Virus record (IMG/VR): IMGVR_UViG_3300020735_001087
Coordinates: 1 to 33,162 of that record
Length of the DNA stretch: 33,162 nucleotides
Direction: 5' to 3' (one strand)
From: a virus
The translations under genes were made by a program, and so were the position numbers. Of the stretch, positions 6,674 through 31,413 are shown one piece after another; position 1 is the first letter of the stretch, and the number at the start of each line of letters is the position of its first letter. A model generated the notes under the pieces. That model ran no database searches, had not been told where the DNA came from, and was given only the letters and a program-made list of their open reading frames with translations.

Positions 6674-6781
6674 ATGCAGATAATAAGTAATACCAGAAAA
6701 ATAATTATAGAATTATTATATATTGTAAATTCGTTAATAATTACATTTATGTTTGGATATTTTCTATCAAAAATGGTATAA
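6674..6781 (+). CDS. 35-residue membrane microprotein
   Basis: A short basic N-terminus (NTRKIIIE) is followed by one membrane segment (IVNSLIITFMFGYFL). The stop codon overlaps the first TATAAATA box of the late promoter. There is no strong ribosome site, so this is a tentative call. Confidence 0.35.
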   Translation: MQIISNTRKIIIELLYIVNSLIITFMFGYFLSKMV

Positions 6782-6793
6782 ATAGTATAAATA
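6777..6793 (+). promoter_or_regulatory. Doubled T4-like late promoter
   Basis: TATAAATA occurs at 6777-6784 and again at 6786-6793, one base apart, 36 bases before the structural gene at 6829. TATAAATA is the T4 late -10 consensus, recognised by gp55-type sigma with no -35. The same 17-base doubled box occurs at 31397-31413. Confidence 0.7.
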
Positions 6794-8448: not shown

Positions 8449-8874
8449 ATGTCATATAAAATAATAAATTATTATCCAGAATATGGGGAATTGGAAATTA
8501 TATTTGAGGAAACTAATAACACATTTAAAGTAATATTGCCGATAGAAAATGAAAATTTTGTTACTGGAGATAGATTAAATCAAGTATTAGAATCATTTCA
8601 AAATTGTTCAAAAGTTGATGAAAGAAAAAATAATGTTCTTGGTGTGAAAAATGTTGAAGAAATAAAATCTTTAATATCAACAGACAACTGTAAACTTTCA
8701 ATATACAATCAAAGACAGATATTATTATCTAATTCTGATTGGACACAGGGCTTAGATTCTCCATTATCAGAAGAAAAGAAAGATGAATGGAAAGTTTATA
8801 GACAACAATTGAGGGACATTACTCTCCAATCAGGATTTCCACTCGAAACAGTTTGGCCAAATCAACCGATTTAA
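8449..8874 (+). CDS. Tail fibre assembly chaperone
   Basis: The C-terminal third, from NQRQILLSNSDWTQGLDSPL through WKVYRQQLRDIT to GFPLETVWPNQP, is the signature of the phage tail assembly chaperone family (Phage_tail_APC, Pfam PF16778). The first about 80 residues are beta-rich and specific to this phage. Members usually sit just after a tail fibre gene and help fold it; here the glycine-rich adhesin is three genes upstream. A clear ribosome site (AAGGAAAA) precedes the start. The stop overlaps a remnant on the other strand. Confidence 0.85.
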   Translation: MSYKIINYYPEYGELEIIFEETNNTFKVILPIENENFVTGDRLNQVLESFQNCSKVDERKNNVLGVKNVEEIKSLISTDNCKLSIYNQRQILLSNSDWTQGLDSPLSEEKKDEWKVYRQQLRDITLQSGFPLETVWPNQPI

Positions 8875-8990
8875 GAATAATATAACCCCAATTTCTTTAA
8901 TTCTTCTTCAGTTAAATTATTTTTTGCTCGATTTGCTTTACAGAATTGTAAAGCAAATCAGATGATCTATTAAATGCAATAAGCCAAACA
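8871..8990 (-). pseudogene. Frameshifted C-terminal remnant of a phage gene
   Basis: On the minus strand one frame reads VLLIVWLIAFNRSSD, and a second frame, offset by one near 8950, reads ALQFCKANRAKNNLTEEELKK and then LGLYYS before a stop. Joined, they look like one phage protein tail; endings of the LTEEELKKLG type are common. No start codon is in place, and the remnant lies directly behind the stop of the repeat-containing endonuclease-like gene. It is probably what remains of the gene that element invaded. Confidence 0.35.
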
Positions 8991-8991
8991 A

Positions 8992-10077
8992 TTAATAATA
9001 CTGTTTAAATTCTTTAAAATCTCTAGAAATAATACATTTAGGATACGTTCTCTTAGTTTCAACAATAGAAAGAAACGGTCTTTTTGATGGATTATCATAA
9101 CCAATTCTTTTTAAATGTGTATGTTTCCGCCTTTCTATCTCCTCATCACTAACATATTTTCCACCATTTTTTTCATATCGGGTTTGTTTAATCTTTTCCA
9201 AAGATACATCACTAACATATTTTCCACCATTTTTTTCATATCGGGTTTGTCTTGCCTTTTCTTTATATTCAGGAACTTGTCCTGAATATTCGTAACCAGT
9301 TTTTTCTATATTAGTTTGTTTCTGTTTCTTTTTTAATTCTGGGACTTGTGATATATACTCATAACCATATTTTTCTTGTACAGTTTGTTTAGTTTTTTCC
9401 AAAGAATCATCGCTTCTAAATTTTCCATTATGTTTTGTAAGTTTAGTTTGCCTACCTTTTGCTATTGCTTCTAGGATTTGTGTTGAATATTCAACACCAT
9501 ATCTTTTTTGTGTGGTTTGTTTCTTTTTTTCTTGTATTATTAGAGATTGTGATACATTATCCACACCATATCTTTCTTGTACAGTTTGTTTTTGTTTTTT
9601 TAATGATTCATCACCCCAAAAATTCCCACCATGTTTTTCATATCGGGTTTGTTTTTGTTGTTCTTTTATTTCAGAAACTTGTGTAATAAAATCGTAACCA
9701 TATTTTTCTTGTACGGTTTGTTTAGATTTTTTATAAAATTCCGGTAAACCAAATGCCATACCAGAATTATTGTGTCCATTATACCATTCATCAGATCTAG
9801 CACAATTCAGTGTTTGTAAGAACAATGATTCATATTCGTAAGCTGATAAATTATCAAGATTAATATCAATCCTTAAAATTACAAAAGAATCTAATCCTTC
9901 TTGTTCTATTATAGTTTTTATTGCGTTAGATGATGTTTGATATCCATTAGGTTGCATAAATTCATCAGGATGACAACCAACAGCCCATTTAGAGCCAGCA
10001 TACATCTTTTTAGAAGTTTTATGTTGTATTATGTAAAAGTATGGAATTGTGGTGATATAAGTATTTGTGCTGGTCAT
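8992..10077 (-). CDS. GIY-YIG-like protein with ten DNA-binding-type repeats
   Basis: The N-terminus (residues 10-33, PYFYIIQHKTSKKMYAGSKW) resembles a GIY-YIG nuclease core: two short strands (YFYII, MYAGS) around a loop. The usual catalytic Arg and Glu are not clear; Glu83 near YEYESLFLQ is a candidate. Residues 117-337 are ten tandem units of 21-23 residues with consensus KQTxxEKYGxxxxSQxPExKEK, interleaved with a second kind, KQTRYEKNGGKYVSDxSLEK. Such units are common in phage homing-type endonucleases and are thought to grip DNA. The ribosome site AAGGAAAC precedes the start. Homing endonuclease is the best guess; activity is uncertain. Confidence 0.65.
   Translation of the reverse strand: MTSTNTYITTIPYFYIIQHKTSKKMYAGSKWAVGCHPDEFMQPNGYQTSSNAIKTIIEQEGLDSFVILRIDINLDNLSAYEYESLFLQTLNCARSDEWYNGHNNSGMAFGLPEFYKKSKQTVQEKYGYDFITQVSEIKEQQKQTRYEKHGGNFWGDESLKKQKQTVQERYGVDNVSQSLIIQEKKKQTTQKRYGVEYSTQILEAIAKGRQTKLTKHNGKFRSDDSLEKTKQTVQEKYGYEYISQVPELKKKQKQTNIEKTGYEYSGQVPEYKEKARQTRYEKNGGKYVSDVSLEKIKQTRYEKNGGKYVSDEEIERRKHTHLKRIGYDNPSKRPFLSIVETKRTYPKCIISRDFKEFKQYY
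9067..9729 (-). repeat. Ten in-frame protein repeats of 21-23 codons
   Basis: Each unit opens with (K/R)QT and has K(Y/H/N)G seven or so residues later. Two subtypes alternate: SQxPE units of 23 residues and SD-SLEK units of 21. The pattern suggests expansion by unequal recombination. Confidence 0.8.
9144..9250. repeat. 44-bp exact direct repeat, period 63 bp
   Basis: Bases 9144-9187 and 9207-9250 are identical. The 63-bp period equals one 21-codon repeat unit, so this pair is the most recent duplication within the repeat array. Confidence 0.9.
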
Positions 10078-10172
10078 GTTTGTTTCCTTAAATAAATGTT
10101 AGAATGATTAGAGCTTGTGGATACTTGCAATATCGCGACAAGCCACCAATTAAAAATCTTTAATTGATCTAC

Positions 10173-10180
10173 TATTTATA
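10173..10180 (-). promoter_or_regulatory. Possible late promoter box
   Basis: TATAAATA on the minus strand, about 95 bases before the start at 10077. The distance is longer than for the other late boxes here, and the region is AT-rich, so this may be chance. Confidence 0.3.
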
Positions 10181-10313
10181 TAAAGAAAAATCTTGACCAA
10201 TTAAAATAAAAATCATAAATTGTCACATCAAAAGGAATTCCTCTTTTCTTTGCCGATCGTTTAATTCTGTTATATAATTCTTTTGGTTCTGGCGGAAGTA
10301 TTCTTTCTTGCAT
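10176..10313 (-). pseudogene. Truncated protein with KRSAKKRGIPFD motif
   Basis: This 45-residue minus-strand frame reads MQERILPPEPKELYNRIKRS, then AKKRGIPFDVTIYDF, and stops soon after. The RIKxSAKKRGIxFDLT opening is typical of longer phage proteins often tied to HNH or homing endonucleases, where a zinc or HNH part follows. That part is missing, so this looks like the surviving N-terminal piece. It lies between two mobile endonuclease genes, which fits repeated invasion at this spot. Confidence 0.4.
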
Positions 10314-10379: not shown

Positions 10380-10481
10380 ATGAATATCTTTTATACAAAC
10401 AACAATCCAGAAATTTGTGCTCAAGAACATTGTGATAAACATTGTATTAAAATGATTCTAGAAAGTTCATTTTATAAATAA
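10380..10481 (+). pseudogene. Duplicated 5' fragment of the DKHV-family gene
   Basis: The 33-residue frame MNIFYTNNNPEICAQEHCDK followed by HCIKMILES matches the first 29 codons of the gene at 11400 (about 68 of 87 bases by eye), then diverges to SFYK and stops. It keeps the original promoter, ribosome site (TTTAGGA) and ATG. The break comes right after the LES codons, where the endonuclease insertion begins. It is a leftover from the insertion or from co-conversion and probably encodes no functional protein. Confidence 0.75.
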
Positions 10482-10513: not shown

Positions 10514-11419
10514 ATGTATATTTGTCCAATTTGCAAGAAAGAACATGATACTTTACGAAAGATTTCAAAACATCTACAAGCTAAACATAATTTAATACCC
10601 AAAGATGTTTTATTTGAATTATATCCCGATCTATTCAGAAATTGTGGGTGTTGTGGAATAAAAATAAAACAGACGTTGTCTGATAAGCAAAGTAGGAAAT
10701 TTTGTGGTTCTGTGTGTGAAATTGAGTGGAGAAAAATGAGGATTCAATCTCCCGAAACTATTGCAAAACGTATACAAAATACTAATCAAAAAAAGAAAGA
10801 AGAAAATAGACAAACTACTATGATAGGAAAGTATTCAACTTTATCTTACTTCCCTGAACCTGAAAATAGAAATAAAAAAATATCAGAAGCATTAAGTGGG
10901 ATTCCACATTCTAAAGAACATCATAAAAAAGTAATTAATACTAAACGAATAAATGGTACATTAAATCATAAACAAGAAACGAAAGATTTAATAAGCTCAA
11001 AAATAACTTTAAATTATCAAAGCGATAATCCACCAAACACAATACCTAAAAATGGAAAAGGCGGGAGAGGATATAAATCAGGTTATCTTAATGGTCATTA
11101 TTTTAGATCATCGTATGAAAAACAATTTATAAAAACCTGTTTAGAATATAATATAAAAATTGAATCGGCAGAAACAAAAGAATTTAGAGTATTATATGAA
11201 TTTAACGGAAAGAAAAAATTTTATTATCCAGACTTTTATTTACCGGATTATAATGTTATAATTGAAATAAAACCTACCACGCTTCTTGACAATAAAATAA
11301 ATTCATTAAAATTTGATGCTGCGTTAAAACAACATGAAAATTTTACAATTTTAACTGAAGAAGATATATTTGACACTAATTTAAAATGGGTACACGATCT
11401 TGAATATTTTTTATACTAA
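10514..11419 (+). CDS. VSR-like homing endonuclease with zinc fingers
   Basis: Residues 4-25 form a C2H2 finger (Cys4, Cys7, His20, His25). A second cysteine cluster follows (Cys44, Cys46/47, Cys64, Cys68). Residues 123-145 (ISEALSGIPHSKEHHKK) are a NUMOD3-type DNA-binding helix. The C-terminal domain has FRSSYEKQF (Glu202) and YYPDFYLPDYNVIIEIKP with Asp240, Glu251 and Lys253, the PD-(D/E)xK-like core of VSR-type homing endonucleases. The start is preceded by a weak TTAGGA. The gene splits a duplicated fragment from its parent gene and its end overlaps that parent's TTG start by 20 bases. Homing activity is inferred from domains and context. Confidence 0.85.
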   Translation: MYICPICKKEHDTLRKISKHLQAKHNLIPKDVLFELYPDLFRNCGCCGIKIKQTLSDKQSRKFCGSVCEIEWRKMRIQSPETIAKRIQNTNQKKKEENRQTTMIGKYSTLSYFPEPENRNKKISEALSGIPHSKEHHKKVINTKRINGTLNHKQETKDLISSKITLNYQSDNPPNTIPKNGKGGRGYKSGYLNGHYFRSSYEKQFIKTCLEYNIKIESAETKEFRVLYEFNGKKKFYYPDFYLPDYNVIIEIKPTTLLDNKINSLKFDAALKQHENFTILTEEDIFDTNLKWVHDLEYFLY

Positions 11420-22251: not shown

Positions 22252-22506
22252 ATGATAGTTTTAAATAAAAATGTTTTGATTTTAAAACAAAAACAAGAAT
22301 ATTCTGGATTGATTCAGGGTGTTGATACTGAAGAAAGTACCTATGCAAAAGTTATGGGACTTGGAAAACAAGTTGAAGAAGTTAAACTTGGTCAAACAGT
22401 AATTCTTGATTGGTCTAAAGCAAAAAAAGTAAAAAATGAACTTTTTATTGTTTTAGAAGAAGATATTGTAGCAATTCTAGAAGCTGAAGAATTGGAAGTA
22501 ATTTAA
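22252..22506 (+). CDS. groES: GroES-like co-chaperonin, short form
   Basis: The 84-residue product follows the GroES fold: NVLILKQKQ, a short SGLIQG where the mobile loop has its hydrophobic tripeptide, YAKVMGLGKQ, VKLGQTVILDW and a C-terminal FIVLEEDIVAILE. E. coli GroES has 97 residues and T4 gp31 111, so the mobile loop and roof region are trimmed here. The adjacent phage groEL shows that the phage brings its own full chaperonin rather than only a replacement lid. It probably caps that GroEL during capsid protein folding. Confidence 0.88.
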   Translation: MIVLNKNVLILKQKQEYSGLIQGVDTEESTYAKVMGLGKQVEEVKLGQTVILDWSKAKKVKNELFIVLEEDIVAILEAEELEVI

Positions 22507-22508
22507 TC

Positions 22509-22533
22509 TCCAAATTGTCAAAAGAGATTTGGA
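22509..22533 (+). other. Hairpin between groES and groEL
   Basis: TCCAAAT (22509-22515) and ATTTGGA (22527-22533) pair with an 11-base loop. No T-run follows, so it is not a terminator. It may protect or separate the two messages, or be chance. Confidence 0.35.
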
Positions 22534-22562
22534 AGTAAGTTGTAACATTAGTTAAACTTTAA

Positions 22563-24185
<1,623 letters not shown>

Positions 24186-25586: not shown

Positions 25587-25594
25587 TATTTATA
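25587..25594 (-). promoter_or_regulatory. Late promoter for the lysis genes
   Basis: TATAAATA on the minus strand ends 22 bases before the endolysin ATG. It faces away from the early promoter at 25603-25631, so the two programmes diverge from one short region. Confidence 0.65.
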
Positions 25595-25853: not shown

Positions 25854-26240
25854 TCAATTTCCTTGGTTTTCAATATAATTTTTGATTGTTTCTTCTGACG
25901 CATTTCCAATACTACAACAAAAATATCCTGATGACCATAAAATATTATTATACCAATAATCTCGTCTTAAGTCAACCCCAAATTTTTGCCAAACATGATA
26001 TGTTGAATATTGTTTAATAATTTTTACAATCAACGATATTGATTGCATAGGTTTGATCTTGAGTAATATATGTATATGGTTTTTTTCATCGCCATTGATT
26101 GCTATTATTTCACAATGAATTTTCTTCAATTCTTGTTCTATTATTGAAATTGTATATTCCATTATATCAGGTCTAAGAATTGGTTTTCTATATTTTGTTA
26201 CTATTATCAAATGATAATTTAAATCTGTTTTGTTTGTCAT
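25854..26240 (-). CDS. tnpA: TnpA, IS200/IS605 Y1 (HUH) transposase
   Basis: The 128-residue protein has the family opening YHLIIVTKYRKPIL, the HUH-type metal motif NHIHILL (His-x-His) and the nucleophile tyrosine in EETIKNYIENQ near the C-terminus. Length and motif order are those of the IS200-like transposases. It cuts and joins single-stranded DNA at the element's ends, guided by the end hairpins. It is transcribed away from tnpB. No ribosome site is seen before the ATG, which is usual for tightly limited transposases. Confidence 0.93.
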   Translation of the reverse strand: MTNKTDLNYHLIIVTKYRKPILRPDIMEYTISIIEQELKKIHCEIIAINGDEKNHIHILLKIKPMQSISLIVKIIKQYSTYHVWQKFGVDLRRDYWYNNILWSSGYFCCSIGNASEETIKNYIENQGN

Positions 26241-26295: not shown

Positions 26296-27480
26296 ATGTT
26301 TATTAGACAAAATTACAGAATTTATCCAAATAAAGAGCAATCAGCTACACTTAACCAATGGTTAGGTCAAGCCAGATTTATCTGGAATTACATGTTGTCT
26401 AAAAATATTGAATCGTATAATGATACAAAAAATTTCATATTTAAATATAATATGAATAATATGTTACCAGAACTAAAAGATTCTGTTGATTATAATTGGT
26501 TAAAAGAAATTCCTTCGCAATGTTTACAACAAAAATGTCAAGATTTAGATACAGCTTTAAAATCATCATTTAAAAGTAAAACAAATAGAAAAGGTTTTCC
26601 GAAATTTAAATCAAAAAAGATTGATGAATCGGGTATAAGATTCCCTTCATTTAAATTTGAAGGTAATCGTATAGTTTTACCTAAAATGAAATCTGGTATA
26701 AAAATCAAACTCCATAGAGAATTATTAGGCAAAAAAGGTTCTTTAACATTATCTAAAGATAAAATTGGTAATTATTTCGTTTCAATTTTGGTAGAAATTT
26801 CTGATGATTATTTTTCAAAACCTATAACAGAAATAAAATCTGTTATTGGTATAGATGTTGGTTTAAAAGAATTTGCAATAACATCTGATGCAGAAATAAT
26901 CAATAACCCAAAATTTTACCGTAAAGCTGAAAAGAAAATAAAAAAATCTCAAAAATCATTATCAAGAAAAAATAAAGGATCTTCTAATAGAGAAAAATCC
27001 AGAAAAAAATTAGCAAAAATACATTTAAAAGTAAAAAACCAAAGAAAAGATTTTAGCAAACAAAACGCATATTCGATAGTCAAGAATAACGATTTGATTG
27101 CTGTTGAAACATTAAATATCCAAGGAATGATTAAAAATCATAAACTTGCTAAATCCATTGCTGATGTGAGTTGGTATCAATTTCATCAAGATTTACAATG
27201 GCAGTGTAAAAAGCAAGGTAAAGAATTTGTAAAAATCAATCAATGGATACCTTCAAGTAAAAAATGTTCTTGTTGTGGTAACATAAAATCAGACTTAACA
27301 TTATCCGATAGAATATATGAATGTTCTTGTGGATTAAAATTAGATCGAGATTTAAATGCTTCAATTAACATTTTAAATGAAGGGTTAAAATTTTACAATA
27401 CCGTAGGAACTACGGAAATTAACGCTTGTGGAAATATGATTCAAGGTATTGAATCAGCCCAAGAAGCCATAATCCTTTAG
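26296..27480 (+). CDS. tnpB: TnpB, RNA-guided nuclease of the IS605 element
   Basis: The 394-residue protein has the full TnpB plan: N-terminal YRIYPNKEQ and WNYMLS, the RuvC motif IGIDVGLKEFA with its Asp, DLIAVETLNIQGM with its Glu, the zinc ribbon CSCCG...CSCG and LDRDLNASINI with the last Asp. No truncation or frameshift is seen. TnpB uses an RNA made from the element's right end to cut DNA that matches the flanking guide and so favours keeping the element in place. No ribosome site precedes the start. Confidence 0.93.
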   Translation: MFIRQNYRIYPNKEQSATLNQWLGQARFIWNYMLSKNIESYNDTKNFIFKYNMNNMLPELKDSVDYNWLKEIPSQCLQQKCQDLDTALKSSFKSKTNRKGFPKFKSKKIDESGIRFPSFKFEGNRIVLPKMKSGIKIKLHRELLGKKGSLTLSKDKIGNYFVSILVEISDDYFSKPITEIKSVIGIDVGLKEFAITSDAEIINNPKFYRKAEKKIKKSQKSLSRKNKGSSNREKSRKKLAKIHLKVKNQRKDFSKQNAYSIVKNNDLIAVETLNIQGMIKNHKLAKSIADVSWYQFHQDLQWQCKKQGKEFVKINQWIPSSKKCSCCGNIKSDLTLSDRIYECSCGLKLDRDLNASINILNEGLKFYNTVGTTEINACGNMIQGIESAQEAIIL

Positions 27481-31396: not shown

Positions 31397-31413
31397 TATA
31401 AATAGTATAAATA
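31397..31413 (+). promoter_or_regulatory. Doubled T4-like late promoter
   Basis: TATAAATA at 31397-31404 and 31406-31413, one base apart: the same 17 bases as at 6777-6793. It lies 34 bases before the ATG at 31448. Confidence 0.7.

Follow-up and report, generated by a model that had tools for sequence, protein, structure and literature searches.

The window, the whole stretch of DNA that we analysed, comprises positions 1 to 33,162 of IMG/VR record IMGVR_UViG_3300020735_001087 and comes from a large freshwater virus that infects bacteria. One of its minus-strand ORFs encodes a 361-aa protein, is preceded 12 nt upstream by the Shine-Dalgarno sequence AAGGAA, and lies with its leader between two remnants of another gene (Table 1). 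The protein matches the PHROG 'homing endonuclease' (8e-15) and is encoded with 100% identity in three other contigs. A search for relatives in genome contigs found none, and PDB sequence searches with the protein or its domain profile gave no credible match. The same phage carries GroES-like and GroEL genes (22252-24185, plus strand; GroEL recognised by Pfam, GroES by eye), as well as an IS200/IS605-type element with a Y1 transposase (25854-26240, minus strand; 2e-31) and a TnpB-like protein with a Cas12f-like domain (26296-27480, plus strand).

Table 1. Features at and around the 361-aa ORF, in window coordinates.
Feature	Position	Strand	Basis or remark
Probable free-standing GIY-YIG homing endonuclease ORF, 361 aa	8992..10077	-	HMM, repeat, residue and fold evidence
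GIY-YIG-type nuclease domain, aa 1-112	9742..10077	-	residues, fold, profile comparison; below Pfam cut-off
Array of ten DUF7487-type units, 23/21 aa, one helix each	9058..9723	-	HMM, unit analysis, AlphaFold
Units 8 and 9 with 44-bp exact repeat	9127..9252	-	sequence comparison
Whole leader	10078..10203	-	5' arm predicted to pair with Shine-Dalgarno in read-through RNA
TATAAATA, T4-type late promoter-like	10173..10180	-	position and enrichment
Hairpin P1, UCGCGA/UCCA core	10113..10143	-	covariation; model match E 2e-10
Conserved CUAA linker	10108..10111	-	leader alignment
P2, UCAU (10107-10104) with AUGA (10077-10074)	10074..10107	-	covariation
Shine-Dalgarno in P2 loop	10089-10084	-	
Conserved YCAGC, here inside coding start ATGACCAGC	10069..10073	-	leader alignment
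5' remnant of small HNH-type endonuclease gene, first 37 codons	10203..10313	-	comparison with empty allele
3' remnant of HNH gene, last 22 codons and stop	8871..8946	-	comparison with empty allele
Perfect 13-bp inverted repeat at insert's 3' junction	8930..8959	-	absent from empty allele
Second mobile nuclease	10514-11419	+	Zn-finger-like start, DUF7487-like middle, TnsA/PD-(D/E)XK-like end
5' remnant of gene at 11400	10380-10466	+	upstream of second nuclease
TATAAATA sites before gene starts	6777-6793, 10473, 25587-25594, 30837, 31397-31413		29-52 nt before gene starts

The N-terminal domain contains, in order, the GIY...YIG elements, the catalytic glutamate and the C-terminal asparagine. 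Across 23 aligned relatives, residues Y15, Y26 and G28 (as Y26-x-G28), E83 and N100 are invariant, and they parallel Y6, Y17, G19, E75 and N90 of I-TevI in order and approximate spacing. I-TevI R27 has no clear counterpart; a K/R occurs at alignment position 30, with spacing unlike that of I-TevI. AlphaFold predicts the domain as beta-beta-alpha-beta-alpha with pLDDT mostly above 90. The top PDB match of the full model is 1mk0, the I-TevI catalytic domain, at a weak score (E 0.75, TM 0.50), and viral matches include GIY-YIG, Seg and NUMOD3 proteins. Foldseek with a model of the domain alone returned ribosomal-protein noise and nothing useful. When the N-domain profile was aligned to bona fide GIY-YIG proteins with hhalign, we obtained E 6e-5 and a probability of 64%. 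The window protein scores below the Pfam cut-offs (PF01541, 14.8 bits against 22.6; SegE, 16.5 against 25), and one family member, L155, exceeds that of SegE_GIY-YIG (35.1 against 25). As the Pfam cut-off is not reached, the GIY-YIG assignment relies on residues, fold, viral matches and hhalign combined. A sequence-only reading of this DNA had guessed at a GIY-YIG-like protein, and the ordered catalytic residues, the fold order, the weak I-TevI match and the hhalign result all support that guess.

The absence of an evident key arginine and the Pfam score below cut-off could also point to a degraded or inactive nuclease with another role, such as repression of its own promoter; I-TevI, a homing endonuclease that is also autorepressing, provides a precedent (PMC2988022). 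However, the ORF is intact and identical in four contigs, and both E83 and N100 have been kept in every aligned relative, and we regard an inactive protein as improbable.

Behind the nuclease-like domain, the sequence-only reading had described ten repeats of two subtypes, 23 and 21 residues long, and had proposed a profile search with them. This search identified a catalogued family, DUF7487 (PF24308; 92.4 bits against a cut-off of 27, E 5e-26). The ten units and two subtypes were confirmed, with starts at residues 119, 142, 163, 186, 209, 230, 253, 276, 297 and 318, but the subtypes do not alternate as had been claimed: the lengths run 23, 21, 23, 23, 21, 23, 23, 21, 21 and 23, the 21-residue subtype being units 2, 5, 8 and 9. 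A run of 44 identical bases within a 63-bp unit is real and lies between units 8 and 9, where it forms the longest exact repeat (9250-9207 and 9187-9144, spacing 63 bp). The description of this unit as freshly duplicated suits most of its length but not its last ~17 bp, where the differences between the two copies fall (identity 51/63, compared with 43-80% for other equal-length unit pairs). The array went unreported by TRF owing to the divergence of its copies, and no copy-number variation was seen among the three other contigs, whose proteins are identical. We also considered a three-unit super-repeat (LSL x3), which fits the unit order once one duplicate is subtracted, yet the unit identities disagree with it (high for 1-6 and 3-6, low for 1-4 and 4-7), and it was rejected.

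Sixty distinct 23-residue units give the consensus K-x-T-x-x-x-K-Y-G-V-E-N-x-x-Q-S-x-E-I-K-x-K-x. In the AlphaFold model each unit is one 15-residue helix followed by a turn, with pLDDT mostly 80-90 in units 1-8; confidence drops around residues 209-221 and around 324-353, and the chain as a whole takes no fixed arrangement (pTM 0.37). Predicted disorder of the repeats would have spoken against the modular DNA-binding array that the sequence-only reading envisaged; the units are instead predicted as ordered helices. The repeat region is basic, with 49 K/R and 33 D/E. We found no paper on DUF7487 in the literature searched.

About 60 distinct proteins have the N-domain in common. Among these relatives, about 2 to 10 DUF7487 units, of 19-, 21- and 23-residue kinds, can follow the domain, and the alternative parts found in this place are C2H2-like arrays (L103-L106), NUMOD3-like stretches (L034, L154, L163) and an HNH/AP2-like part (L121), where the names Zn-finger, NUMOD3-like and AP2-like were assigned by eye from the sequences. 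The long C2H2-like zinc finger arrays of L103, L104, L105 and L106 occur in phage proteins of 344-670 aa; a strict pattern counts about 4-8 fingers in them, and inspection by eye more. Bead swapping behind a single nuclease domain has been described for the T5orf172 HEGs (PMC10448857). As the relatives show the same swapping, and as zinc fingers or NUMOD3 replace the array in some of them, it is a reasonable inference from these sequences that the DUF7487 beads bind DNA.

In a stronger version of this proposal, the ten units would form a TALE-like array whose unit number and type determine how long the DNA target is and which sequence it has. This would fit the ordered helices, the range of unit numbers and kinds among relatives, the replacement of units by other DNA-binding beads, and the variation of unit positions 2, 4-7, 12-14, 16-18, 21 and 23 around a fixed K.T....YG. 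However, no one-repeat-per-base code was found, the relative orientation of the units is not predicted at the pTM of the model, and the variable positions may just as well be surface residues of no special role, and we consider such an array unlikely. Our preferred reading of the protein is a GIY-YIG homing endonuclease that is free-standing and carries an array of DUF7487 repeats.

With I-TevI and the Seg proteins of T4 it shares a small N-terminal GIY-YIG domain followed by C-terminal beads (PMC2988022), which in its case probably bind DNA, whereas its beads are a DUF7487 array in place of their Zn finger, NUMOD or HTH, and its GIY-YIG domain is divergent enough to fall short of the Pfam cut-off. 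The T5orf172 HEGs resemble it in their repeated DNA-binding modules, internal-repeat recombination and domain swapping, and differ in nuclease subfamily and in the bead, theirs being repeated Zn fingers described as 'beads on a string' (PMC10448857). DUF7487 phage nucleases, such as the 'homing endonuclease' of Klebsiella RaK2/K64-1 and Campylobacter CP21 phages, clearly match in their repeats; these matches cover the repeats only and leave the window's nuclease domain uncovered.

The near-identical phage sequences L016, L017 and L018 contain neither this ORF nor the second nuclease gene next to it, and thereby provide an empty allele at the site that is occupied in the window and in L002-L004. 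The two alleles are 99.8% identical over 4.7 kb on the left and about 98% identical on the right, and diverge mainly in ~15 bp on the left and the first ~500 bp on the right. At the insert position the empty allele has an intact 106-aa HNH-type gene (PHROG endonuclease, 1e-28), which in the window is split by a 1.26-kb block made up of the leader and the ORF. As HNH remnants flank the block, one mobile nuclease gene has displaced another nuclease gene; replacement of HEGs by HEGs is known from SegH and Hef, which replace mobC and mobE (PMC2988022). The insertion is not clean: the split gene misses about 45 codons, which makes a past replacement event as likely as simple homing. The inverted repeat at the 3' junction was rejected as an intrinsic terminator, there being no T run on the coding strand.

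The diverged right flank fits a conversion tract, as expected of homing co-conversion, and free-standing insertion with co-conversion-like flanks is also a feature of Seg (PMC2988022). Since this tract is common to the neighbouring nuclease, it cannot be credited to the 361-aa ORF alone; judged from the allele sequences, both nucleases lie within one exchanged block, and either could have driven the exchange. The second nuclease gene is inserted at the 5' end of the gene at 11400, whose reconstituted version begins with a TTG inside the second nuclease's 3' end, and it has no RNA leader.

An ORF that lies on the same strand as the HNH gene and inside it could belong to a group I intron, where GIY-YIG ORFs are common. 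This is extremely unlikely: no Rfam intron match appeared even at E 5, and exon sequence has been lost at the junction. On the same two grounds we ruled out a group I/II intron.

Aligning the leaders of the relatives first revealed a covarying element. It usually lies right behind a T4-type late promoter and consists, in order, of the hairpin P1 with a UCRCGR/YCYA core, CUAA, the stem P2 enclosing the Shine-Dalgarno sequence, and YCAGC. The distance from promoter to P1 is 30 nt in the window and about 3-5 nt in most relatives. In 27 leaders, 98.0% of the cells of the 11-pair P1 structure are paired, and 92 cells show double changes, compared with 26 after shuffling and at most 13 with slid partners. 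An independent set of 65 further sequences, taken from the viral-contig pattern matches listed and with outer stem and loop stem lying outside the search pattern, gave 95.8% pairing and 207 double changes (57 shuffled, at most 25 slid). The element is present in at least 151 distinct leaders. P2 forms with 4 bp or more in 80 of the 98 distinct arm combinations, compared with 29.6 on average and never more than 42 in 1000 shuffles, and YCAGY stands behind it in 147/151 leaders, where 8% would be expected. The AUG falls within the 3' arm of P2 in the window's subfamily but behind YCAGC in most others, so that the element stays conserved even though its register relative to the reading frame changes.

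The leader forms the 5' margin of the inserted block and lies next to a promoter, which raises the question of whether it acts as DNA, either as an operator or cruciform or as a recombination site, and HEG operators at late promoters are known (PMC2988022). We consider this quite improbable, given that the letters of the stems vary freely with pairing kept, that the asymmetric UCRCGR/YCYA core is fixed, and that the proteins associated with it have unrelated DNA-binding parts; kept pairing together with an asymmetric core is unlike a double-stranded operator. Treating the leader as RNA, we found no related match in Rfam 15 for the window or for eight leaders, none among cultured phages by blastn with one leader, and nothing convincing in T4 or Aeh1 with the leader model (best E 0.2 and 1), such that the conserved P1-CUAA-P2-YCAGC arrangement is unmatched in those phages. 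The shared motif was also absent from the literature searched, which mostly excluded subscription journals, and the element is apparently undescribed so far. Overall, the locus very probably holds a free-standing homing endonuclease gene of a large phage, inserted as a block in an HNH gene and equipped with a conserved structured leader.

To identify what the leader precedes, we scanned the window and 80 other loci (634 kb), the latter mostly fetched through another gene, and obtained eight matches with E<1, seven of them with E<1e-6. Behind four of these seven (window, L034, L038 and L041), a GIY-YIG-type ORF starts within 13-25 nt. Behind the L040 match stands an ATG with first codons typical of the family, but no ORF of at least 60 aa, and behind the match in L082/L084, which have one sequence, a start of the same M-x-I-Y type but no clear nuclease ORF; these copies may be truncated or decayed. 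Fifteen phage contigs contain 0-6 leader copies each. All 20 copies that we inspected, most of them secondary copies unused in fetching the contigs, have within 3-24 nt an ORF that reads from its sequence as GIY-YIG- or HNH-like, one of these being short (53 aa). Among 75 proteins behind the listed pattern matches, 42 match PHROG 314 and 27 PHROG 655 (homing endonucleases) and 12 an HNH PHROG; by Pfam, NUMOD3 is found in 26, HNH-type domains in 6-8 per model and GIY-YIG in 7. Two of the inspected copies come from cultured phages, and the leader is present in Variovorax V45v66 (at 86003-86047) and Pseudoalteromonas vB_Psh_XG4. It looks like a shared expression cassette of phage mobile nucleases, and we think it fairly likely that the late promoter-P1-CUAA-P2-YCAGC arrangement is an undescribed cis-acting RNA that serves as a common 5' cassette of mobile nuclease genes in large phages.

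In the window phage, five genes have TATAAATA 29-52 nt ahead of them, and it ranks first among 56 8-mers of the same composition; this enrichment makes T4-type late promoters likely in this phage. The same sequence lies at -71 to -91 in 16 of 56 family leaders. Predicted unpaired probability of the window's Shine-Dalgarno sequence is 0.01 in read-through RNA and about 0.6 in late RNA, and only 3 of 500 shuffles bury it as deeply. We propose that the leader would make expression of the endonuclease late: the T4-type late promoter would yield a translatable transcript that starts near P1, while read-through transcripts, as modelled for the window copy, would bury the Shine-Dalgarno sequence in a long stem with the promoter in its 5' arm. 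Burial by this arm is clear only in the window's leader and weak or absent in other members, which indicates that the P1/P2 element probably has another role as well; it may, for instance, stabilise the late mRNA, adjust ribosome access or bind a factor. Once made, the protein would hold a long DNA target through its beads, its nuclease domain would cut alleles without the gene, and repair from the occupied copy would convert them.

A late promoter combined with RNA structure over the Shine-Dalgarno sequence is also found in I-TevI and Seg (PMC2988022), and in MobE, SegB and I-TevI the late promoter lies before or inside an RNA structure that controls translation (PMC2988022, PMC3014915). Those hairpins have been described gene by gene (PMC2988022, PMC3014915), whereas the leader of the window type is one conserved two-stem motif across GIY-YIG and HNH genes. 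As endonucleases of these two unrelated origins use it, the leader may tag selfish genes as one class and set their timing, and it may be bound by a common factor.

The relatives of the window protein carry about 2-10 helical beads behind a shared nuclease domain, a natural series that would allow measurement of how bead number relates to the DNA target. Phage genomes are shaped by homing endonucleases, which cut rivals, and a few T4-like examples are known in which expression of these enzymes is kept in check. If our reading of the leader is true, unrelated nuclease classes use one common, transferable control switch, and the leader would serve as a sequence tag with which selfish nucleases can be found regardless of family, unannotated ones included.
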